Position numbers and translations under genes: made by a program
Part shown: one piece after another, positions 5,887 to 17,041 of the stretch
Layout: each line of letters starts with the position of its first letter
How positions within the stretch are numbered: the first letter of the stretch is position 1
Notes under the pieces: generated by a model
The model's database searches: none
Told to the model about the DNA's origin: nothing
Seen by the model: the letters and a program-made list of their open reading frames with translations, nothing else
Origin: a virus
DNA length: 27,946 nt
Direction: 5' to 3' (one strand)
IMG/VR virus record: IMGVR_UViG_3300028027_000185
Location: 1-27,946 of that record

Positions 5887-6567
5887 ATGGCATATACACG
5901 TGGTGATAGCAAAAAGATTATCGTCGGTGCAGCAGCTCTCTTTACATATGAGGGTGGCGAACTTGGCGATGCAGATCTTCCTAATCCTACAGCCAACGTT
6001 TCTTACAAGGAGTCACTTACAAGTGACACAGACTACAGAAACGTCGGATATACCAGCAACGGTCTTGAACTTATGTTCCAGCCCGATTTCGGTGAAGTTC
6101 GTGTTGACCAGGTACTTGACGTAGCCAAGCTTTATAAGCAAGGTATGCAAGTTAATCTAAACACAGCATTCGCAGAAGCAACACTTGAGAACCTTCTCTT
6201 CTCACTCGCAGGAAAGTCAACTGACGTTGACCAACTTGAGAGCACAGCAGGAGATGCTTGGAATCAGAACTGGGACACTAACTTTGTTGGTGACTTTGCA
6301 ATGAATATGTCAGCAGGTGACATTGGAGAATGTCCTGTTGAACGTGGTCTTGTTGCAGTTGGTCCAGGTACAGGTGATTGTGCAGCTGGTAGTTCCAAGG
6401 AGCGTATCTATGTTGCATACCGTGCTCTCTCAATTGAGAACGTATCGGTAATGGCAAAACGTGATGAAGCAACAATGTTTGAAGTTTCATTCCGTCTCCT
6501 TCCTAATGATCTAGCATCATATGGAAAGATTATTGACCGCACAATAGCTAACCAAGCTTGGTCTTAA
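5887..6567 (+). CDS. Major tail (tube) protein
   Basis: The 226-residue product forms the tail tube. The ATG at 5887 has a good AGAGGTGA site. The sequence shows the alternating strand layout of lambda gpV-type tube proteins: an N-terminal KKIIVGAAALFTYEGG segment, a middle DFGEVRVDQVLDVAKLYKQG block, and a C-terminal block with KERIYVAYRALSIENVSVM and EVSFRLLPNDLASYGKI. The last motif is common in actinophage tube proteins. Codons favour AAG, CGT and CTT as in the capsid gene, as expected for an abundant virion protein. The gene is alone between its own promoter and a strong terminator, so it can be expressed to a high level independently of its neighbours. Confidence 0.8.
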   Translation: MAYTRGDSKKIIVGAAALFTYEGGELGDADLPNPTANVSYKESLTSDTDYRNVGYTSNGLELMFQPDFGEVRVDQVLDVAKLYKQGMQVNLNTAFAEATLENLLFSLAGKSTDVDQLESTAGDAWNQNWDTNFVGDFAMNMSAGDIGECPVERGLVAVGPGTGDCAAGSSKERIYVAYRALSIENVSVMAKRDEATMFEVSFRLLPNDLASYGKIIDRTIANQAWS

Positions 6568-6582
6568 TAATTAAATAATCAG

Positions 6583-6617
6583 AACTGCTCAGGCTTCGGT
6601 CTGGGCAGTTTTGTTTT
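6583..6617 (+). terminator. Intrinsic terminator with UUCG tetraloop
   Basis: A 12-bp stem (6583-6594 paired with 6599-6610, two G-U pairs) closes on a TTCG loop (6595-6598). It is followed by a T-rich tail TTTTGTTTT (6609-6617). C(UUCG)G is an unusually stable tetraloop. The element ends the tail tube transcript. Confidence 0.9.
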
Positions 6618-6621
6618 ACTG

Positions 6622-6627
6622 TACAAT
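6622..6627 (+). promoter_or_regulatory. -10 element giving a leaderless chaperone transcript
   Basis: TACAAT at 6622-6627 lies 6 bases before the ATG at 6634, so the A of the ATG is at the expected +1. There is no Shine-Dalgarno sequence and no clear -35. Only four bases separate it from the terminator's T tract. Confidence 0.5.
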
Positions 6628-6633
6628 AGAATA

Positions 6634-7323
6634 ATGGCAACTAAAATATATGACACAGCATATGTGTATTTAATAGATGGGACAGAGCTTTATTTAACAC
6701 CACTTAAAATTAAATATCTAAGACAGTTTATGGAAGCATTTGAAAATATAAAATCTGCAAATAACGATGAAGATTCAATTATTGCATTAGTTGAGTGTTC
6801 AAGAGTTGCAATGAAACAATACTATCCACAAATAAAAACAACAGAAGACGTTGAAGATAATTTTGATTTAGAAAGTATTTATACAATTTTAGATATTGCT
6901 GGCGGTATTAAAATACAAGACTCTTCAGAAGAACCAGTAAAAGAACAAGCAATAGAAAGTGGAGCATCTTGGGAAACTTTTGACTTAGTATCTCTTGAGT
7001 CCGAAGTATTTCTTCTTGGTATTTGGAAAGATTATGAAGAACTTGAATCTTGTTTATCGTTGCCAGAATTAACAGAAATATTAAACACAAAAAGAGAAAT
7101 AGATTATAGTGAAAAAAAATTTCTTGCTGCTATGCAGGGAATAGATCTAGACAAACAAAATGGTAGACAAGACGAAATAGATCCTTGGGAAGCAATGAAA
7201 GCAAGAGTCTTTAGTGGTGGAAACACCACAGATCCAAATGATATAGTTTCTTTGCAAGGTGTAAATGCAGCAAGAGCAGGATTTGGAATAGGTAATGGAC
7301 TTACCTATGAATCCTGGGACTAG
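6634..7323 (+). CDS. Tail assembly chaperone, long form (G-T-like)
   Basis: The 229-residue product has two parts. Residues 1-95 (VYLIDGTELYLTPLKIKYLR ... YTILDIAGGIKI) form a G-like domain, clearly paralogous to the whole short chaperone at 7364. Residues about 110-229 form a T-like extension (ESEVFLLGIWKDYEELESCL, ... KFLAAMQGIDLDK). In most long-tailed phages G and G-T come from one gene by programmed frameshifting and help the tape measure protein assemble the tail. Here the long form is a separate continuous gene. All six Arg codons are AGA and all Lys codons are AAA, in contrast to the short paralogue. It begins from a leaderless-type promoter without a Shine-Dalgarno site, consistent with low expression. 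Confidence 0.8.
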   Translation: MATKIYDTAYVYLIDGTELYLTPLKIKYLRQFMEAFENIKSANNDEDSIIALVECSRVAMKQYYPQIKTTEDVEDNFDLESIYTILDIAGGIKIQDSSEEPVKEQAIESGASWETFDLVSLESEVFLLGIWKDYEELESCLSLPELTEILNTKREIDYSEKKFLAAMQGIDLDKQNGRQDEIDPWEAMKARVFSGGNTTDPNDIVSLQGVNAARAGFGIGNGLTYESWD

Positions 7324-7327
7324 CGTA

Positions 7328-7336
7328 TGATATAAT
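7328..7336 (+). promoter_or_regulatory. Extended -10 promoter for the short chaperone
   Basis: TGATATAAT fits the extended -10 consensus TGNTATAAT. No -35 match is seen at the expected place inside the upstream coding sequence. AGGAGG (7352-7357) with a 6-base spacer precedes the ATG at 7364. Confidence 0.6.
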
Positions 7337-7363
7337 TAATTGAGTTCAAATAGGAGGAACACA

Positions 7364-7681
7364 ATGGCAGTAACAGTAAATGAAACACAAGATATCGTTC
7401 TAATCGATGGTACGGTAATCTCCATACGACCTTTGAAGATCTCACTTCTTCGTGAGTTTATGAAAAAGTTTGAGGGTATTTCTGCAGTAGCAGAAGACAA
7501 TGATAAGTCTATGAACATTCTTATGGAATGTGTGCAGATTGCAATGAAGCAGTACAAGCCTGAATTGTCAGCAGATCTAAAGGTACTAGAAGACAACATT
7601 GATCTTCCAACAGTATACAAGATTGTTGAAGCAGCATCTGGAATTAACCTTTCGGATGGTGTAGCTGGTTTAATGGTTTAA
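7364..7681 (+). CDS. Tail assembly chaperone, short form (G-like)
   Basis: The 105-residue product starts at the ATG at 7364, six bases after AGGAGG; an upstream in-frame alternative start at 7340 would include the ribosome binding site in the coding sequence and is rejected. The whole protein aligns with the first ~95 residues of the upstream gene: IVLIDGTVISIRPLKISLLR matches VYLIDGTELYLTPLKIKYLR, and MECVQIAMKQYKPEL matches VECSRVAMKQYYPQI. It ends where the long form's T-like extension begins, and no T frame or slippery site follows before the tape measure start. Lys codons are AAG in 7 of 8 cases and both Arg codons are CGN, resembling the capsid gene. It probably supplies the abundant G partner. 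Confidence 0.8.
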   Translation: MAVTVNETQDIVLIDGTVISIRPLKISLLREFMKKFEGISAVAEDNDKSMNILMECVQIAMKQYKPELSADLKVLEDNIDLPTVYKIVEAASGINLSDGVAGLMV

Positions 7682-7705: not shown

Positions 7706-10700
7706 ATGGTTGATGAAGTTCAAGGAAATATTAATGTAAACATTGATACTTCTGCTGCTATTGCATCCTTGAAGAGATTACAGGGTCAAATCTCTCAGTT
7801 CCACACCAGTATGGCTAAGGGTGGAGCCACAGCAAACCGTGAAGCAGCACTTCTTCAACAAAGTTTAATTAATAGCATTAATAAAACTGGTCAGTTCTCT
7901 GCCAGTATGACGAAAGTTGCCTCATCAACTGAAGCTTTTACAACAGCACTTGAAAGTAATAAGTTGTCGATGGGGCAACATTTTCGTTATGCAATGGCTT
8001 CTACCAAAATGTTTGGTAAAGGTTTTATTAACGAATTTAACACAATTCAAAAGGTAGCAGAATCTAGAGTAAGAACTTTACAGACACAGTTTATCGGTTT
8101 AGGTAGAGATGCCAATGGTGCTCTATCAGCAATCAAGGTAAGACCCCTTATCCTTGATATGAATGACCTTGCTACAAAAACACAAATTGCTGCACAAAAA
8201 GCACAGATATTTAATAAGCTTGTTAATCAAGGTGCAACCAATCTTCTAAACTGGGGTAAGAATACACAGTGGGCTGGTCGTCAGCTTATGGTTGGTTTTA
8301 CAATCCCCCTGACAATTTTTGCTTCTACCGCTTCTAAAGCGTTTATGGAAATAGAAAAGCAGGTAATTGCATTTAAACGTGTTTATGGAGATTTTAGTAC
8401 AACTAAAAAACAAACAGATGATATGGCAGAATCTGTTAAAGCTCTTGCTAATGAATTTACACAATATGGAATAGCAGTTAAAGACACTATGAGTCTTGCA
8501 GCTAAAGCTGCTGCTATGGGTAAAACTGGTGCAGACCTTACAGCACAAATTAAAGAAACTTCTCGTCTTGCCGTGCTTGGTCAGGTAGATCAACAACAAG
8601 CCCTCGATACCACTATTTCTCTTACCAATGCGTTTGGTCTTGCTGCAGATCAACTTGCTGGCAAGATTGACTTCCTTAACGCAGTTGAAAACCAAACGGT
8701 AACATCCATTGAAGACCTTACTGTTGCTATTCCAAAAGCTGGTCCTGTTATTCAACAACTTGGCGGTAACGTAGAAGACCTGTCATTCCTTTTGACAGCT
8801 ATGCGTGAAGGTGGCATTAACGCTTCTGAGGGTGCTAACGCACTTAAGTCAGGTCTTGCTGCTCTAATTAATCCAACTAAAGCTGCATCCGATATGCTTG
8901 CAGGGTATGGAATTAATATTCAACAAATGGTTCAATCTGACAAAGGTAATGTTAAAAAACTTATTGTTGATTTTGCATCATCTTTAGATAAACTTGATCC
9001 ACTTAGTCGTGCAAGAGCCATTGAACAGATGTTTGGCAAGTTTCAATTTTCACGTATTTCAACACTTTTTCAGAACGTAATTAAAGAGGGCAGTCAGGCA
9101 CAGCAAGTTCTTAAACTAGCAAGTTCTTCTAGCCAAGAACTAGCCATTCTATCACAACGAGAACTTTCAAAAGTTTCAGAGTCAACAACCTATAAATTTG
9201 AAAAAGCAATTACTGATTTCCAAACCGCACTTGCTCCAGTTGGTGAACAGTTCCTTAAACTAGTAACTCCAATTATTGAATTTGGCACAAAGATGCTTGA
9301 AAAGTTTAATGGTCTTGGCGATGGAGTTAAGGGATTTATTACAACTATTGTTGCAGGTGTTGGTGTAGTTGGACCAGTACTACTAATGACTATTGGTTTG
9401 TTTGCTAATGCTATTGCCAACATTATTTCAGTAGTACAATTCCTTAGAGCTACGTTTAGCGGTACAGCAAAGGGTAGCAAAGATGTTGCAACTTCAACAG
9501 AATATATGACACAAGCACAACTTGTTGCAGAAGCAGCAGCTGCTGGTCTAAATCAAACACACTCAAGACTTATTCAAACATATAACGTTGAAAGAGGAGC
9601 ATTAGATAACTTAACCAGAGCCTATCAAGCAGCTGCACGAGCAGCAGGTCTTCCAATTATGGGTGCTCCAATTGCTGGTAAGGGAGGGACAACAGTTCCA
9701 CCAATGCCAATGGGTAAAAAATATGCTGCTGGTGGAGTTATTCGTGGACCAGGATCTGGCACTTCAGATTCAATTCCTGCAATGCTTTCTAATGGTGAAG
9801 CAGTTATCCCTGCCAAACAAGTTAAAAAATATGGTGGATTTATTCAATCAATGATTTCTGGAAACGTTCCAGGATTTGCTGGTGGAGTAATTCTTCCATC
9901 AAACCTTGCAAAACTTGGAAGAACAATTAAATCTCGTTCAGTATATGAAGCACCAGCAGAACAAGCAAACCTTGGATATCTTACAAGCTCTATGGCTGGC
10001 AAAGCTCCAGAAAACTACTTAAGACAACATTCTGGTAGTGGAGGACATAGCTTTGAGCCATTTGGCGTAGGTGGAGCCTATATGAGAGCAGACGGAACTC
10101 CAGTAATGGTAAAGCCAGTTCAAAATGAACAACTTGCTCGTGCTGAAATGTTTGGAACACGAATTGCTCGTGAAGCACACGGACTTCAAGCACCAGAACA
10201 AAGATTAGTTGTTATAAAAGATCCAACAGACTTAGCTGGTGAACGTAGATTCCTTGCTCTTGAATCTCCCTATAATTCAACTTTTGCACCGCCAGGGCAA
10301 CAGTCGTTTACAAAAAATGAGTTTTTTCAACAACTAGTTGCTTCATTAGTTAGAAATGATAAAGATCTTCAGGCTGCGAATCTATGGAAAAATGTTCTTG
10401 CAGATGTTGGACCTGCTGGGGTATTTGCAAAAGCATCTGGCGTTAGGTCTCTAACAGCCGATCTTCCATCAATGCAGGAACAGGCAATGATTAACCTACT
10501 TGGTGTTAAAGGTGGTGCAAGAAAAGACTTTGCTCTTGCTACTGCAGATCTAGCAAGAAGTATGTCACCAGCACAATATTCTGCAGGAATTCTAAAAGAA
10601 ATTGATCAAGTATTGCCAAGACTTAAATCTACAGTAAATTCTTTTAATTTAAGTCCAGAAGAAAAGCCTGTATACGAAGCAATGATTGCAAGACTTGAAG

Positions 10701-13700
10701 CTGGTAGAAACGTTGATTGGACACAGATGCAATCAGTTCATTCAGCAGCTATGCCAACAGCACCAAAAGCCCAAGGTTTTGCATTAGGCGGTTTTGTTGG
10801 TAAAAAACCATTAATTAAGCCAATTGCTAAAACCCCAACAACTCAGGCAAATGCTAAAAAACCAGCAGCACAAGCTTTTGATTTTGACGATACCTTAATT
10901 AATTTTGACGATTATTTAAAATCAAGTAGAGCAGAACAAAGTAAGGTTCCTTGGAAACAAAGAATTAAGTGGTGGAGTGATGAAGAACTTAGAGGTGCAA
11001 TTGGTGTTGCAAAACCAAAAACAAAAGTTATTAATCAACTTCTTAAAGTACAAAAACAAGGTAAACAGATTATTGTTCTTACCGCAAGACCAAGCAGTGC
11101 AGACAATATTACTAGAGAACATCTTGCTGCCCTCGGAATTGATCCTACTAACATTAAAATTGTTTCAAGAGATAGATCAAATCCAGAAATGGCTAAACTT
11201 AAAGCTCCAGAATTAAAAGGTAAACTTGCAGGACAACTTATTAATGATTTTGAAATTGAAGCATTTTATGACGATCTTCTTGAGAATAGAAACGCTTTAG
11301 CTGCATTAGGTATTAAAACATACGACCCACTTAAAATGGCTACTGGTGGGGTTGTCCGTGGTCCAGGATCGGGAACATCTGATTCAATTCCTGCAATGCT
11401 TTCAAATGGTGAAGCTGTCATTCCTGCAAAACAAACTAAAAAGTATAGTGGTTTTATTGAGTCAATGATTTCTGGAAATGTTCCTGGATTTGCACTTGGT
11501 GGTTTTATTGGACAAGCAGCAAATGCGTTTAAGTTTATGTTTGCTAAAAATCAACAAGGCAAATTTAGAAATTTTGGATATTCAGGAATGAATCCATTTA
11601 CTGGTCCAGCACAATCTTCAAAAAGATTACAGCAAGGTGCAGAAATATCTAAACAAGATCTTCCAATATTACAAAGTCTTAACAACCTTATTAATGGTGG
11701 TATGTCTCCCCAAAAAGCTCTTGCTGCTATTCAACAAGATCCAAGATTTTCTAAAGATTTTGCACAAATTATAAGAGACCGTGGAATAGGAAGTATTGGA
11801 AGACACTCTTTAGAAATGTCTTCTAGTGCTTATGGATTAGAAAGTTTTGCAGGATTAAAAACATCACAAGGTAGGGATAGAAGACTTCAAGATCTTTTAA
11901 ACGCACAAAGTAGATATACAAGTAGTGGTGCAAAAGATTATTTAGAGTCACCACTTTTTGCATTAAATAGATTAGGGGCTAATCTTTTAGATCCAAGATC
12001 TGGATCACGAGATAGCCTCCATAGACTTCGACTAGCTATGAGTCCATCAACAATTGCATCAAAACTGTTTCCTGGAAAAATGGCATCATACTATACAAAA
12101 AATATGGTACATAGAAGTGAAAATACTAACCTTGAAAACACTTTGGGGCATCCTAAAGATTATAACCCAACTGTAAACTATAGTAGAACTTTTGGTCCAG
12201 GAATGTATTTTGCAAAAAATAAAAAATTATCAGACACAACATTTAGAGCATACGGAAATACTCAATATAAACAAAACCTTTCGCCAGAAGCAGTGCAAAC
12301 CATTAAAGACAGCAAGGGCTACATTACATTAGATAGACTGTTTAAGTTTATAAAAAAGAATCCAGAACTTGGAACAGATAGGGGAACAGCTCTTCCAAGA
12401 ATAATTGTTGGTGGAAAAGATGTAGACTCTAGAATATCTGGAGCACCATATGACGACCCATTAATTCAGGCACTAATTAAACAAGGATATTTGGGATACA
12501 AGCACGGAGATGCTTTTACTAGTTGGATGACAGGTCTTCCTGGATTCAAATTAAAAAAATATGCTAAGGGAGTAGTTAGCGTACCTGGACCCAAGGGGGC
12601 AGGGGATGTAACTCCAGCAATGCTATCTCCAGGAGAAGCAGTAATTCCAACTAAGATGGCTAAGAAGTATGGCGGTCTTATTAATGGAATGATTGCTGAC
12701 AATATTCCTGGCTATGATGAAGGTCTTGGTACAAAATCTGTTTCATACAATGGAAGGAATATTCCACTAGCTGCTTCAGCCAATGTCGAAAAATTTGACA
12801 AATTAATAGCCTCTGTTCAATCTGGAGCAATTGGTGTTGAAAACGGAGCTGTTATATTAGAAGAAACTTTTGCATCACTTTCTTCAGAGGGTCGCAAAAT
12901 TTCTTTTAAAGATTTTTCTGGCAAACTTATGTCGGTAACAAAAGCAATAGAAGGATCAGAAATAGCAATTAACAGAATAAATAGCACTGTTGCTTCGGTT
13001 TCAGGAGAAATAACTCTTAAACAATCAAAAGGTACAAGCCTTATAACAGATCTAGAATCTTTAAATAATCCAGTTCTTCAAGATGAATATGATAGAGCCA
13101 AAGCAGCAGCAGAAGCTGCAAAAACAGCAAGACTTGCTGCTGGATTACCTATTGGTCAATCAGAACAAATTGATAGAGCACACCTAGCCCCTGTTTCTGG
13201 TGCTGGCAAAATATTATCTTCGGGAGCTGGTTGGCATCCAGATTTATGGACACCGCAAGCATCAGACGAAAATCAAATGACAGAACAACTAAGAATGTCT
13301 GCCGATAAAAGAACAGCTTTGTATGACGAATACATTAAGCATTTAGCAGACGAAGGATTAAGTGCAGAAAAAGCTGCAGCAATGATTCAAAAAGTTAATC
13401 AAGGACTAGCACTATCCGATGAAGAACTTTTAATTCAAAGAAACATTTTACAAAAAATGTTAGCAGATCAGTCATCTGCTGTACACAAGAGTAGTGGCAT
13501 TAAAGGATATGCTGTTGGATCCGTAGGTGCTGCAACAGCAAGAGAAACATATGGATTTACTCCATCATCTGGAACTAGACCTGCAGCTGACACTGCAGCA
13601 GCAATGGCGGAAGTAGACAGACAACTTGCAGTTACTACCTACACAGAAGAGGGTACTAGATTAGTACAGGTTAGAGCAGATGCCATAGATGCAGGTATAG

Positions 13701-16700
13701 TTACTGGATTTGATGCAGCAACACAACGAAACTCTCCACCACAAGCAGCAATTGATGCTGGTGAAGATTATGGAAATGCTTTAAATACTGGTGCAAGGTC
13801 ACAAATTGATGATGCAAAAGCTGCTGGACAAGAACTTGGACAAGCTACCGTTAATGGTACACAAGCGGCTGTTGATGATACAAAGAAACCAGCAGGACAA
13901 CGAGTTAGCAGAAGATTTGGTAGATTAGCTGGAGCTGTTGGCGGTACTGGTTCACAACTACTAATGATCCCAGACCCTCAAAATCCAGGTATGTACATTA
14001 GCAAATACGAATCTGATCGTAGAGATGCTAAGAGAGAAGAAATCGAAAGACGTACAAAAGCAGCCTTTGGAACAAAAGAACAAAGAAAAGCTTTTGGCAT
14101 AAAAACTCCAATAGAAAAAGTTGGTGGAAAGATTGCTGCTGGTGTTAAGGGTATGGGCGGTATGGGAGCTGGTATGGGAGTATCTATGGCTGGTGGAGCA
14201 TTAATGATGGTTCCTGGTATGCAAGAAGTTGGTATGGGAATGTCAATGCTTGGTTCACTCTTTATGATGATGCCAGCTGCCGCTGCTGGTGTAGTTGCAG
14301 CTTTAGCAGCAGTAGCATTTGGAGTTTATAAATTAATAGAAGCACAAGAAGAACAACGTAAAAAATCAATTGCACTTGCAAATGCTGCTGTAATGAGTCA
14401 AGCTGCCCTTGAAAAAATGTCTCAAGATTTTGGTACAGTAAGCGTTACACAAGCAAGAAAAGCTGAACAAGAAGCAAGGCTAACAAACGTAACAGAAAAA
14501 CAATTAACTGCTGGAGAACAATACATTACAGAAATGGAATCTGGCAAAAAACTTCTTGCAGATGTTAAGTTGCAACAAACAGCTGGAAAATCTTCTACAG
14601 AAATTGGACAAAATGTCGCAAGCAATCTTGCAACTGCTGTAGCACAACAAGTAATTACTAAAGAACAGGGAGATGCAATTATTGCTGCACTTGGAATTGC
14701 TTCTGGTAATCTTGGAATTGGCAGTGCTGCATCACAACAATTTAGTAAATATACCGCAGATTTATCAAAAACTGCAATAATGACTTCCAAAGATGCACTA
14801 AATAATATTAAGTCTCAAACTCAAAAAACTTCTGCTATGGCTACAACTTCATCATCTGGAACTCTTTCTTACGATCAAGCACCAACTTTGCTTGACCCAA
14901 ATGGAGCAAGACAACTATCAACTAAATCAACAAATTACTACGGTCAAGCAGTCGGTGGTATTGACACAATTAATGCTGCATACGATGCAAAAGTTAAAGA
15001 AGCTAAAACACAAGAACAAATAAACATACTTGAAGGGCGAAGAGCAACTGCTTTAGAGAAGCAAAGAGGCTACGCTGCCGATATATATGCTGAAATTGAA
15101 AAACAAAAAACAACGATTACCGATACAGAATTTAGTAGTAATTTCTTAACAAATATAAAAGAAAATTTTGGTCCAGAAAGTGATGCTGCAAAAACAGCAG
15201 AAAACATTAATAAACTTGGAGCCGAAAGTGGTGACTTTAAACTAAGACTTCAAACTCAGTTGGCATCTGGAACACTAAGTCCTGCATCTATAGATCAACT
15301 TTTGCTATACGGTCAAGAAAGTCCAGATTTTGGAATTAATTATACTGCAGCAATTACTGCTCAGGGAGAAAAAGAAGCTACAGATTTAGTTAGTTATGCT
15401 CAATCTGCTCAAGGAACGACTCAAAGAATCACAATTCTTCTTGATACGTATGCAAATATGGATGCTGAAGCTGCAAGACTTCTCGCACTTGGAGTTAAAG
15501 GTGCTGCAGAAATTGGAGTTAACATTAATGCAACTGGTACAACACAATTAACCGATATCGGTATAATTATGGACAAATTTAGTAGCAAATCAGAAGTTCC
15601 TGTAAAATTCTTAATGAACAATACTTCAACAGTTAACTGGAAGAGATGGGAAAAATTTGCAAAGAGCGGCAAACTAACAAGAGATCTAGTAATTAGAGTA
15701 TCAGCAACTGGACAGTTAGCAATTCTAGATGCATACCTCAAGGCAAAGGGTATCAAGGGCATAAGTGGTGAAGACATAACACGTTATGAGCAAGGAGCAC
15801 TAACAGTAGGAAATGCTTCTGGAGATGCAAGAAAAAATGCAAGAGTGAATAGAGAAATCGATAACGCAAATAAAGAGTTTGTAACAGCAGCAGAAAAAGC
15901 TGCAGCTAGACTTAATAGGATAAATGGCGGTGGCGGTGGAGACGACGGCGGCGGCGGTGGCGGTGGTGGTGCTGCTCCTACAGAAGATCCAATAATGGCA
16001 AGACTTCAAGCTAGACTGGCTAAACAGAATGCACTCCTAGCAGTTATTTCTCTTAAAGAAGAAAAAATAAATAAACTTTACGATGAACGTAAAAAAGCTC
16101 TTGAAGAAATTTCTGCAATTAATGCTAATATTGCAGAACAACAAAAAGATCAACTTGACCTTGCTAACGCATTAGCTACTGGTGACGTTGCTGCTGCAGC
16201 TAAAGCGGTACAGGCTCAACGTGCTACCGCCGCAGCTTTCGCACAAGAGCAACAAATGAAAGCTCTTGAAGAGCAACGACAGAACGCCCTTGACCTTGTT
16301 ACATTTAAAGGAAAAACAAGAGCAGAAATAGAAGCAAAAATTGATATATTAAATATGAGAATTGCAAAACTTGAATATAGAACTTTAGCTGGTGGTGGTG
16401 GCGGCGGCGGTCGCAATAATAATGGTGGCATTATAAATACTGGACCTACAGCTGAAGAAATAGCTGCTCGACGAGCACGACGAAGAGCTGCAAGAAATGC
16501 AGCTAATGCTGAAGCAAATCTTAATGCTAATCGTACTAACAATAATTCTGCAAGTTCAACTAATAATTCTGCAAGTTCAAATAGCAATTCAACTCCAGAT
16601 GTTTATAGTTGGAAAATAGGTGGACACATTACTGGACCAGGAACAGGAACCTCTGATTCAATTGCTGCTAGATTATCAAATGGAGAATATGTAATTAATG

Positions 16701-17041
16701 CTAAGTCTGTACAAAAAATTGGAATACCACTATTAGATGCAATTAATGCCCAAGGATTTGCCAATGGTGGAATGGTAAATCTTGCACATTTTACTAAAGA
16801 CGGAAAGAGTTTTGACATAAATGCCAAAGCATTTAGTATGGGTGGATTTGTAACACCAAAAACTAATAGATACAGTCTTGGAGGAATTGCAAAAATGTCA
16901 AACAACGATCCTTCGGCAGTGTATAATTATAGTGTAACTGTTAATGCAGCTACATCTTCAAATGCCGATGAAATTGCACAAACTGTAATGCAGAAAATTA
17001 AGCAGGTAGAAAGAACAAGACTTAGGGGTAATAGATACTAA
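7706..17041 (+). CDS. Giant tape measure protein with embedded enzyme-like domains
   Basis: The 3,111-residue product sets tail length and is ejected during infection. The start follows AGGGGTG (7692-7698) by 7 bases. Layout: N-terminal coiled coils (1-200); TP901-type tape measure core (about 205-450); hydrophobic segment (542-580); repeat R1 (673-730); kinase-like block (775-1015); HAD-like domain (1056-1205); repeat R2 (1211-1268); ADP-ribosyltransferase-like block (1440-1615); repeat R3 (1619-1673); a block with DRAHLAP (1823-1829); the TMP-type motif GFDAATQRNSPPQAAIDAG near 2000; a long Gly/Met/Ala-rich hydrophobic stretch (2148-2213); coiled coils; Gly linkers (2741-2757, 2896-2905); an Asn/Ser-rich repeat; repeat R4 (2970-3025). 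The tape measure role is firm; the inserted domains are pattern-based. Later parts favour AGA and AAA codons. The stop overlaps the next start (TAATG). Confidence 0.9.
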   Translation: MVDEVQGNINVNIDTSAAIASLKRLQGQISQFHTSMAKGGATANREAALLQQSLINSINKTGQFSASMTKVASSTEAFTTALESNKLSMGQHFRYAMASTKMFGKGFINEFNTIQKVAESRVRTLQTQFIGLGRDANGALSAIKVRPLILDMNDLATKTQIAAQKAQIFNKLVNQGATNLLNWGKNTQWAGRQLMVGFTIPLTIFASTASKAFMEIEKQVIAFKRVYGDFSTTKKQTDDMAESVKALANEFTQYGIAVKDTMSLAAKAAAMGKTGADLTAQIKETSRLAVLGQVDQQQALDTTISLTNAFGLAADQLAGKIDFLNAVENQTVTSIEDLTVAIPKAGPVIQQLGGNVEDLSFLLTAMREGGINASEGANALKSGLAALINPTKAASDMLAGYGINIQQMVQSDKGNVKKLIVDFASSLDKLDPLSRARAIEQMFGKFQFSRISTLFQNVIKEGSQAQQVLKLASSSSQELAILSQRELSKVSESTTYKFEKAITDFQTALAPVGEQFLKLVTPIIEFGTKMLEKFNGLGDGVKGFITTIVAGVGVVGPVLLMTIGLFANAIANIISVVQFLRATFSGTAKGSKDVATSTEYMTQAQLVAEAAAAGLNQTHSRLIQTYNVERGALDNLTRAYQAAARAAGLPIMGAPIAGKGGTTVPPMPMGKKYAAGGVIRGPGSGTSDSIPAMLSNGEAVIPAKQVKKYGGFIQSMISGNVPGFAGGVILPSNLAKLGRTIKSRSVYEAPAEQANLGYLTSSMAGKAPENYLRQHSGSGGHSFEPFGVGGAYMRADGTPVMVKPVQNEQLARAEMFGTRIAREAHGLQAPEQRLVVIKDPTDLAGERRFLALESPYNSTFAPPGQQSFTKNEFFQQLVASLVRNDKDLQAANLWKNVLADVGPAGVFAKASGVRSLTADLPSMQEQAMINLLGVKGGARKDFALATADLARSMSPAQYSAGILKEIDQVLPRLKSTVNSFNLSPEEKPVYEAMIARLEAGRNVDWTQMQSVHSAAMPTAPKAQGFALGGFVGKKPLIKPIAKTPTTQANAKKPAAQAFDFDDTLINFDDYLKSSRAEQSKVPWKQRIKWWSDEELRGAIGVAKPKTKVINQLLKVQKQGKQIIVLTARPSSADNITREHLAALGIDPTNIKIVSRDRSNPEMAKLKAPELKGKLAGQLINDFEIEAFYDDLLENRNALAALGIKTYDPLKMATGGVVRGPGSGTSDSIPAMLSNGEAVIPAKQTKKYSGFIESMISGNVPGFALGGFIGQAANAFKFMFAKNQQGKFRNFGYSGMNPFTGPAQSSKRLQQGAEISKQDLPILQSLNNLINGGMSPQKALAAIQQDPRFSKDFAQIIRDRGIGSIGRHSLEMSSSAYGLESFAGLKTSQGRDRRLQDLLNAQSRYTSSGAKDYLESPLFALNRLGANLLDPRSGSRDSLHRLRLAMSPSTIASKLFPGKMASYYTKNMVHRSENTNLENTLGHPKDYNPTVNYSRTFGPGMYFAKNKKLSDTTFRAYGNTQYKQNLSPEAVQTIKDSKGYITLDRLFKFIKKNPELGTDRGTALPRIIVGGKDVDSRISGAPYDDPLIQALIKQGYLGYKHGDAFTSWMTGLPGFKLKKYAKGVVSVPGPKGAGDVTPAMLSPGEAVIPTKMAKKYGGLINGMIADNIPGYDEGLGTKSVSYNGRNIPLAASANVEKFDKLIASVQSGAIGVENGAVILEETFASLSSEGRKISFKDFSGKLMSVTKAIEGSEIAINRINSTVASVSGEITLKQSKGTSLITDLESLNNPVLQDEYDRAKAAAEAAKTARLAAGLPIGQSEQIDRAHLAPVSGAGKILSSGAGWHPDLWTPQASDENQMTEQLRMSADKRTALYDEYIKHLADEGLSAEKAAAMIQKVNQGLALSDEELLIQRNILQKMLADQSSAVHKSSGIKGYAVGSVGAATARETYGFTPSSGTRPAADTAAAMAEVDRQLAVTTYTEEGTRLVQVRADAIDAGIVTGFDAATQRNSPPQAAIDAGEDYGNALNTGARSQIDDAKAAGQELGQATVNGTQAAVDDTKKPAGQRVSRRFGRLAGAVGGTGSQLLMIPDPQNPGMYISKYESDRRDAKREEIERRTKAAFGTKEQRKAFGIKTPIEKVGGKIAAGVKGMGGMGAGMGVSMAGGALMMVPGMQEVGMGMSMLGSLFMMMPAAAAGVVAALAAVAFGVYKLIEAQEEQRKKSIALANAAVMSQAALEKMSQDFGTVSVTQARKAEQEARLTNVTEKQLTAGEQYITEMESGKKLLADVKLQQTAGKSSTEIGQNVASNLATAVAQQVITKEQGDAIIAALGIASGNLGIGSAASQQFSKYTADLSKTAIMTSKDALNNIKSQTQKTSAMATTSSSGTLSYDQAPTLLDPNGARQLSTKSTNYYGQAVGGIDTINAAYDAKVKEAKTQEQINILEGRRATALEKQRGYAADIYAEIEKQKTTITDTEFSSNFLTNIKENFGPESDAAKTAENINKLGAESGDFKLRLQTQLASGTLSPASIDQLLLYGQESPDFGINYTAAITAQGEKEATDLVSYAQSAQGTTQRITILLDTYANMDAEAARLLALGVKGAAEIGVNINATGTTQLTDIGIIMDKFSSKSEVPVKFLMNNTSTVNWKRWEKFAKSGKLTRDLVIRVSATGQLAILDAYLKAKGIKGISGEDITRYEQGALTVGNASGDARKNARVNREIDNANKEFVTAAEKAAARLNRINGGGGGDDGGGGGGGGAAPTEDPIMARLQARLAKQNALLAVISLKEEKINKLYDERKKALEEISAINANIAEQQKDQLDLANALATGDVAAAAKAVQAQRATAAAFAQEQQMKALEEQRQNALDLVTFKGKTRAEIEAKIDILNMRIAKLEYRTLAGGGGGGGRNNNGGIINTGPTAEEIAARRARRRAARNAANAEANLNANRTNNNSASSTNNSASSNSNSTPDVYSWKIGGHITGPGTGTSDSIAARLSNGEYVINAKSVQKIGIPLLDAINAQGFANGGMVNLAHFTKDGKSFDINAKAFSMGGFVTPKTNRYSLGGIAKMSNNDPSAVYNYSVTVNAATSSNADEIAQTVMQKIKQVERTRLRGNRY
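9722..9892 (+). repeat. Tape measure repeat R1 (GPGSGTSDSIPAMLSNGE type)
   Basis: Residues 673-730 carry GGVIRGPGSGTSDSIPAM followed by LSNGEAVIPAK and a segment ending in NVPGF. This motif type recurs in phage tape measure proteins. It is close to 87% identical in protein to R2 by eye, and shares a 23-base exact match with it (9767-9789 and 11381-11403). Confidence 0.85.
10031..10750 (+). other. Kinase-like domain inside tape measure protein
   Basis: Residues about 775-1015. The segment GGAYMRADGTPVMVKPVQ, then a helix with AEMFGTRIAREAHGL, resembles the N-lobe of HipA or phosphatidylinositol-kinase-like folds: a Gly turn, a strand with a Lys (K803) and a Glu in the following helix (E814). 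I could not find a clear catalytic HxD or DxG pair in the expected C-lobe, so an inactive or divergent nucleotide-binding domain is equally possible. The domain lies between R1 and the HAD-like domain. Confidence 0.35.
10871..11320 (+). other. HAD-like phosphatase domain inside tape measure protein
   Basis: Residues about 1056-1205. Motif I is AFDFDDTLINF with D1059, D1061 and T1063 in the DxDxT pattern. Motif II is VLTARP with T1126. Motif IV is FYDDLLEN with D1189 and D1190. A Lys-rich stretch between them could supply motif III. The set matches the haloacid dehalogenase superfamily, whose members hydrolyse phosphate esters through an aspartyl intermediate. All key residues appear to be present, so activity is plausible. 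The substrate cannot be told; 5'-nucleotide or polynucleotide 3'-phosphatase types are options. Confidence 0.65.
11336..11511 (+). repeat. Tape measure repeat R2
   Basis: Residues 1211-1268 carry GGVVRGPGSGTSDSIPAM, then LSNGEAVIPAK and NVPGFALGGFIG. It is nearly identical to R1. A fragment of its tail (GFALGGFVG, from G1024, nt 10775) also occurs alone between the kinase-like and HAD-like domains. Confidence 0.85.
12023..12556 (+). other. ADP-ribosyltransferase-like domain inside tape measure protein
   Basis: Residues about 1440-1615. MVHRSENTNLENTL supplies H1469 and FGPGMYFAKNKK supplies Y1501, followed by SDTTFRAYGNTQY. The H and Y are 32 residues apart; in diphtheria toxin the matching H21 and Y54 are 33 apart, with a similar G-x-Y-x-x-x-N-K-x pattern. 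A terminal block IKQGYLGYKHGDAFTSW resembles the last strands of such enzymes. I see no clear catalytic Glu, so transferase activity is uncertain. The block sits between R2 and R3. Confidence 0.45.
12560..12730 (+). repeat. Tape measure repeat R3 (divergent)
   Basis: Residues 1619-1673 read GVVSVPGPKGAGDVTPAM, then LSPGEAVIPTK and NIPGYDEGLG. It keeps the PAMLS-GEAVIP core of R1 and R2, but the first half is of the second known motif variety. Confidence 0.75.
16541..16580 (+). repeat. 21-base tandem repeat coding an Asn/Ser-rich linker
   Basis: A 19-base exact unit (16541-16559) recurs at 16562-16580, giving a period of 21 bases or seven codons. It encodes NNSASST/NNSASSN in the linker ahead of R4 in the tape measure protein. 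Being in frame, it can expand or contract without breaking the gene. Confidence 0.8.
16613..16780 (+). repeat. Tape measure repeat R4
   Basis: Residues 2970-3025 read GGHITGPGTGTSDSIAAR, then LSNGEYVINAK and QGFANGGMV. It is the copy nearest to the C-terminus, where this motif commonly occurs in tape measure proteins, and may be the ancestral one. Confidence 0.8.

Follow-up and report, generated by a model that had tools for sequence, protein, structure and literature searches.

Paired short and fused putative tail assembly chaperone genes in place of a frameshifted gene in relatives of Streptomyces phages

Few recoding events of phages are as conserved as the programmed frameshift of the tail assembly chaperone gene, which is near-universal. 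How, then, are the two chaperone forms, G and G-T, delivered by a phage in which T is already in frame with a G domain and a second, separate G gene follows? The question was raised by a 27.9 kb IMG/VR virus contig (IMGVR_UViG_3300028027_000185), which was analysed over its full length of 27,946 nt (hereafter the window). The contig has a head-tail module on board. Its genes are arranged in the order portal end, prohead protease, capsid, connector genes, major tail protein and chaperone pair. The tape measure gene and the minor tail protein genes are found 3' of the pair, followed by genes for an HNH endonuclease and a DnaB helicase. The chaperone locus thus has the major tail protein gene on its 5' side and the tape measure gene on its 3' side, a position that is kept in the relatives. 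The features of the locus are as follows.

5887..6567, + strand: major tail protein gene, the upstream landmark (phrog_2175, E = 2e-31; the family is the annotated major tail protein in Streptomyces relatives).
6580..6613, + strand: predicted intrinsic terminator 3' of the major tail protein gene, with a stem of 15 bp, a loop of 4 and a T tract.
6622..6627, + strand: putative -10 element of the long gene, TACAAT, the end of which lies 6 nt 5' of the ATG.
6634..7323, + strand: long gene, fused G-T, 229 aa (G domain about aa 1-97, T domain about aa 108-229).
7328..7336, + strand: putative extended -10 element TGATATAAT of the short gene, directly 3' of the long-gene stop.
7352..7357, + strand: Shine-Dalgarno AGGAGG of the short gene, read from the sequence.
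7364..7681, + strand: short gene, G-only, 105 aa (phrog_10504, E = 4e-19).
7706..17041, + strand: tape measure gene, 3111 aa, the downstream landmark and presumed client (phrog_10030, E = 1e-100; PF10145).

The tape measure protein itself contains an acid-phosphatase/HAD-like stretch at about aa 1047-1168 (10844-11209), which is unusual within a protein of this kind. This stretch was matched by phrog_415 (E = 2e-9) and by PF03767 (E = 7e-6, just under the cut-off).

The first-pass annotation had described a long G-T-like and a short G-like reading frame side by side, and both were found (6634-7323 and 7364-7681). A TTG at 7340 was considered as the start of the short gene and rejected, the true start being the ATG at 7364. 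The supposed paralogy of the two genes was borne out by 43% identity across 97 aa (E = 3e-21). Both products share the N-terminal G domain, and the longer one adds the C-terminal T domain. In the long gene, phrog_10504 was matched by the N part (E = 2e-22) and phrog_10474 by the C part (E = 4e-14). The T part of the gene has its homologue in the -1 frame of Streptomyces phages. The chaperones are homologous to annotated tail assembly chaperones of Streptomyces phages, and the model of the long gene also matched annotated tail assembly chaperones. The predicted fold of the short gene resembled that of the annotated tail assembly chaperone A0A6J5QVP5 (Foldseek, TM 0.79, E = 2e-7), and a match of the predicted fold to GT of phage N15 was also obtained (Foldseek, E = 5e-3). 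Phrog_1932 was matched by seven of the 46 family members. A search of the PDB by sequence and fold gave no useful match for the chaperones. From the gene order, the homologies and the predicted folds, we infer that the products of the pair act as tail assembly chaperones, one as G and the other as G-T.

Relatives, several hundred in all, were obtained from scans of viral contigs and each fetched locus was classified by reading frame. The same gene pair, which the first-pass annotation had proposed to look for in relatives, was present in 250 complete loci (168 distinct protein sets), and another 116 (79 distinct sets, cultured Streptomyces phages included) had a single G gene, with T encoded in the -1 frame; these numbers are no prevalence estimates, because loci recovered by several queries were counted repeatedly within them and sampling tracked query similarity. 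No third architecture was found among these 250 and 116 complete loci. Each complete pair locus contained exactly one T match, in frame within the long gene. The short gene was followed by no T homologue in any frame, in agreement with the earlier description of the window. Six loci were considered as exceptions to the two architectures and rejected. Five of them (L026, L040, L114, L146 and L401) reach contig ends. In the sixth (L038:3730-4100), the sequence past the short-gene start is unrelated to the family and the contig is probably chimeric. An assembly or sequencing indel was also rejected as the origin of the in-frame G-T fusion, because the fusion is common to 168 distinct sets.

The cultured Streptomyces phages of the Stanwilliamsviridae (Patelgo, BillNye, Stanimal and Bmoc) have the same gene order. 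They and their environmental cousins carry homologous G and T domains in the same position, with an upstream terminator. In both groups there is one G gene, with a slippery heptamer and T in the -1 frame, and the chaperone of Patelgo is annotated as a joined frameshift product. In the pair phages, by contrast, T is in frame with one G and there is a second G copy with its own start signals. The pair lineage is a large, mostly environmental group of long-tailed phages related to Streptomyces phages. Bacterial genomes were scanned for relatives for host assignment and none was found. In one frameshift-type locus (L259:2060-2460), a small gene, cupin-like by eye, lies between the major tail protein gene and the chaperone gene.

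Signals for transcription and translation were then compared between the two architectures. The first-pass annotation had given each gene of the pair its own promoter. Putative -10 elements of both genes were indeed present at conserved distances in 168/168 distinct loci, which argues for two promoters. A hairpin with a T tract 3' of the major tail protein gene was also present in all 168 pair loci, with a median of -22 kcal/mol (-23.5 kcal/mol and z -6.45 for the terminator of the window). The long gene is preceded in 168/168 distinct sets by a -10-like hexamer that ends 5-9 nt short of the ATG, and in 100 of them the distance is exactly 6 nt. In shuffled upstream sequence of the first 127 sets, such an element arose by chance in about 11 of 127 and in at most 18. 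A Shine-Dalgarno match of at least 5 was found for the long gene in 0/127. The frameshift type showed the close -10 geometry in 0/70 (motif scan) and a Shine-Dalgarno in 69/70.

In bacteria, and notably in Actinobacteria, leaderless genes are marked by TANNNT some 12 bp upstream of the start codon (PMC3160421), with the -10 box and the Shine-Dalgarno being mutually exclusive (PMC4633059). The criterion taken from these papers is a -10 hexamer whose first base lies about 12 nt before an ATG/GTG start, with no Shine-Dalgarno, and the long gene shows this arrangement. Because of the distance of the -10 element from the ATG and the missing Shine-Dalgarno, transcription of the long gene is predicted to start at the A of the ATG and to give a leaderless mRNA. 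Leaderless mRNAs of mycobacteria are translated about as strongly as leadered ones (PMC4633059), so the lack of a leader would not by itself have to make G-T the rarer product. Alternatively, the long gene could be leadered and carried by a longer read-through transcript from the tail protein operon, in which case the ratio would be adjusted only via the short-gene promoter. Terminators are never perfect, the start positions are predicted only, and transcripts of promoters located elsewhere would span the gene. However, the -10 element close to the ATG is constant in the pair type and absent from the frameshift sister type, and a leadered mRNA of the long gene would be devoid of an initiation signal since it has no Shine-Dalgarno. 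A leadered long gene is therefore considered unlikely, and a leaderless G-T mRNA is retained as the preferred reading.

The short gene is preceded by other signals. A TGnTATAAT-type element was found 23-38 nt upstream in 168/168, and in 166 of them the hexamer is TATAAT without deviation. A Shine-Dalgarno match of at least 5 was found in 112/127. A terminator between the long and short genes was detected in 1/168 only, so transcripts from the first promoter should cover the short gene too. A scan with the sigma-70 -35/-10 consensus did not score the chaperone promoters above chance, and the case for the promoters is built on conservation of the -10 elements. TATAAT was also found 9 and 5 nt before the ATG of two other genes of the window (473 and 27499), so more leaderless genes are likely in this phage.

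Codon adaptation was scored relative to the major tail protein in 127 pairs. In the pair type, the score was 0.63 for short G, 0.46 for long G, 0.48 for T and 0.51 for the tape measure gene. Short G had a higher score than long G in 126/127 pairs. In the frameshift type, G had a score of 0.61 and T a score of 0.50. The simplest reading is that codon choice tracks translation volume, G being abundant and T rare in both types, and that the G copy joined to T has drifted toward T-like codons. Taken together, the diverged start signals and the codon bias suggest that the G : G-T ratio is probably set by promoters and initiation.

A tree without an inferred root was made from the major tail protein and the N-terminus of the tape measure protein. 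The pair type was nested among frameshift types. Two changes of architecture were counted with the first sample and one with a sample containing more sister loci. In the one-change tree, the branch dividing the architectures had a low support (54), and the long-branched L259 shifted its position between the two trees. A reversion of L259 to frameshifting within the pair clade was considered and was unsupported after the addition of more sister loci. A single loss of the frameshift is the most economical reading and not proof, because the root was not inferred and the decisive branch is weak. In the G-domain tree, the long-G copies formed one clade (100/94) and the short-G copies another (96/91). 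Separate clades indicate one duplication before the group diversified, with both copies retained since, and one old duplication is most likely on this tree. Joining the long-G and short-G copies in a single clade that excludes every frameshift G copy gave a p-AU of 0.51.

Purifying selection acts on both genes, with a dN/dS of 0.07-0.09. Short G evolves slowly, with a mean pairwise identity of 69%, and is 58% identical to the G of the sister lineage. The G domain of the long gene evolves faster (52% mean pairwise identity) and is 42% identical to sister G. These values bear on another explanation, according to which the short gene has taken a different chaperone role and does not provide bulk G, the long gene being the sole classical chaperone. 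The copies are just 41% identical within one phage and fall into separate clades, but it is the short copy that evolves slowly and stays nearer to the ancestral G. It is also present in every complete pair locus, its codon bias is that of abundant structural proteins, and it keeps the ancestral layout of promoter and Shine-Dalgarno, which makes a new role for the short gene improbable. G and G-T could have diverged functionally beyond dosage.

Slippery sites were examined in both types. Of the 79 distinct sets of the frameshift type, 71 have an in-frame X XXY YYZ heptamer within the G/T overlap. Most of these heptamers are C CCA AAC or C CCA AAT and a few are A AAT TTG, and G GGA AAC is the heptamer of the frameshift types nearest to the pair type. 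The other 8/79 sets have a conserved CCCGGAA in place of the standard heptamer. The Boydwoodruffvirinae Streptomyces phages (L164, L166, L167 and L169-L173) have no standard heptamer in the G/T overlap, and the CCCGGAA that they have in common is a possible unusual slip site. A check of both genes of the pair for heptamers at the G/T border had been proposed in the first-pass annotation. In the long gene, no heptamer is conserved at the border, almost every copy is without one and those present are scattered. In the short gene, few heptamers were found near the end; they lead to at most 12 codons beyond it, none of them T-like. T is in frame with G, and a programmed frameshift at a slippery site is not the source of the long form. 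The fused gene of one small lineage, L097 and L107, contains a relic, CCCAAAT, at codon 95, the ancestral slip site, with an immediate -1 stop. A -1 slip at this relic would terminate at once and would give a G-length product, as in dnaX. A remaining contribution of frameshifting, for example a truncated product made at the in-frame A AAA AAA of the long gene (7113-7119), is very hard to credit despite that relic at the ancestral border, as the A-rich site was rejected for lying within T at a conserved Lys-Lys-Phe and varying among phages, A AAA AAR shows no excess (78 observed versus 95 expected from lysine codon use) and the heptamers at the border are scattered.

The following course of events is proposed. 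The phage carrying the pair would be a long-tailed phage related to the Stanwilliamsviridae and its two genes would be the G and G-T chaperones. In the ancestor, one gene would have given G and G-T through a -1 frameshift at a slippery heptamer at the end of G. This gene would have been duplicated once. The upstream copy would have become a single-frame G-T gene with loss of the slippery site, and the downstream copy would have lost T and the slippery site and retained the ancestral layout of promoter and Shine-Dalgarno. In the present locus, the terminator would stop transcription coming from the tail-tube operon. A weaker promoter would then produce a leaderless G-T mRNA able to continue into G, and a second promoter, with a consensus extended -10, a leader and a strong Shine-Dalgarno, would produce additional G. 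The excess of G over G-T would be the sum of the stronger promoter, read-through from the first promoter, the Shine-Dalgarno and better codons. By analogy with the lambda model, G would coat the tape measure protein and T would recruit tube subunits. In siphophage chaperones generally, G exceeds G-T, the two forms both bind the tape measure protein, T binds the tube protein, and virions contain neither form. Codon usage and initiation signals speak indirectly for such a pattern in the pair. We hold this scenario as a whole, from the ancestral frameshift through the duplication to the split into G and G-T with a ratio set by expression, to be likely. We lean with less assurance towards its narrower form, in which frameshifting was replaced once via duplication and the ratio was re-encoded as a leaderless mRNA for scarce G-T and a Shine-Dalgarno mRNA for abundant G.

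Short and fused chaperone genes are also found in T4-like phages, where they are presumably those of gp26 and gp51. Frameshifting is usual, not universal, for siphophage chaperones, and the T4-like phages are reported to be an exception in which a short gene and a longer fusion gene are used instead (Vladimirov, Gautam and Davidson 2022, via PMC10885494). The pair likewise consists of a short gene and a separate short-long fusion gene. The genes of the pair phages are in tandem, whereas in T4 opposite strands carry genes 26 and 51, and the pair phages, unlike T4, have frameshifting sister lineages that display the earlier state. Homology to T4 gp26/gp51 (PF12322) was undetected (hhalign probability about 1%), and PF12322 was matched at E = 0.001 in only 2/46 family members. 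The pair would thus work like the separate-gene chaperones of T4-like phages, and membership of that group is unsupported by homology.

In lambda, G and G-T are needed in unequal amounts, at about 30:1 (PMC5009743), as they presumably are in the pair phages. As in the pair, a short G and a long G-T have a common N-terminal domain; unlike in the pair, they come from a single gene with a -1 frameshift and slippage fixes the ratio. The Microbacterium cluster EA phages are actinobacterial phages that, like the pair phages, have apparently lost the frameshift; their chaperones are encoded in two ORFs, and a frameshift is not evident (PMC7302621). They are reported only as having two separately expressed ORFs, and no paralogous fused copy is described (PMC7302621). 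In view of the T4-like and Microbacterium precedents and of the lack of detectable homology to gp26/gp51, the pair is regarded as a new, apparently independent variant of short-plus-fused chaperones.

What is new here is the comparison of the situations before and after within one family, together with the split between leaderless and leadered expression. The states before and after the loss of the frameshift are found at the same locus, in close relatives and in large numbers. It can therefore be tested whether frameshifting is kept for the ratio or for the coupling of the two products. Annotation also benefits, since phrog_10504 and phrog_10474, both listed as of unknown function, can be assigned to the G part and to the T part, respectively. 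Codon usage agrees with the expression predicted for each part, down to the shift of the long gene's G domain to T-like codons upon its linkage to the rare product. If the proposed scenario is true, the G : G-T ratio could vary with the preference of the host for leaderless translation, e.g. during starvation. This family shows how a near-universal recoding trick can be replaced.
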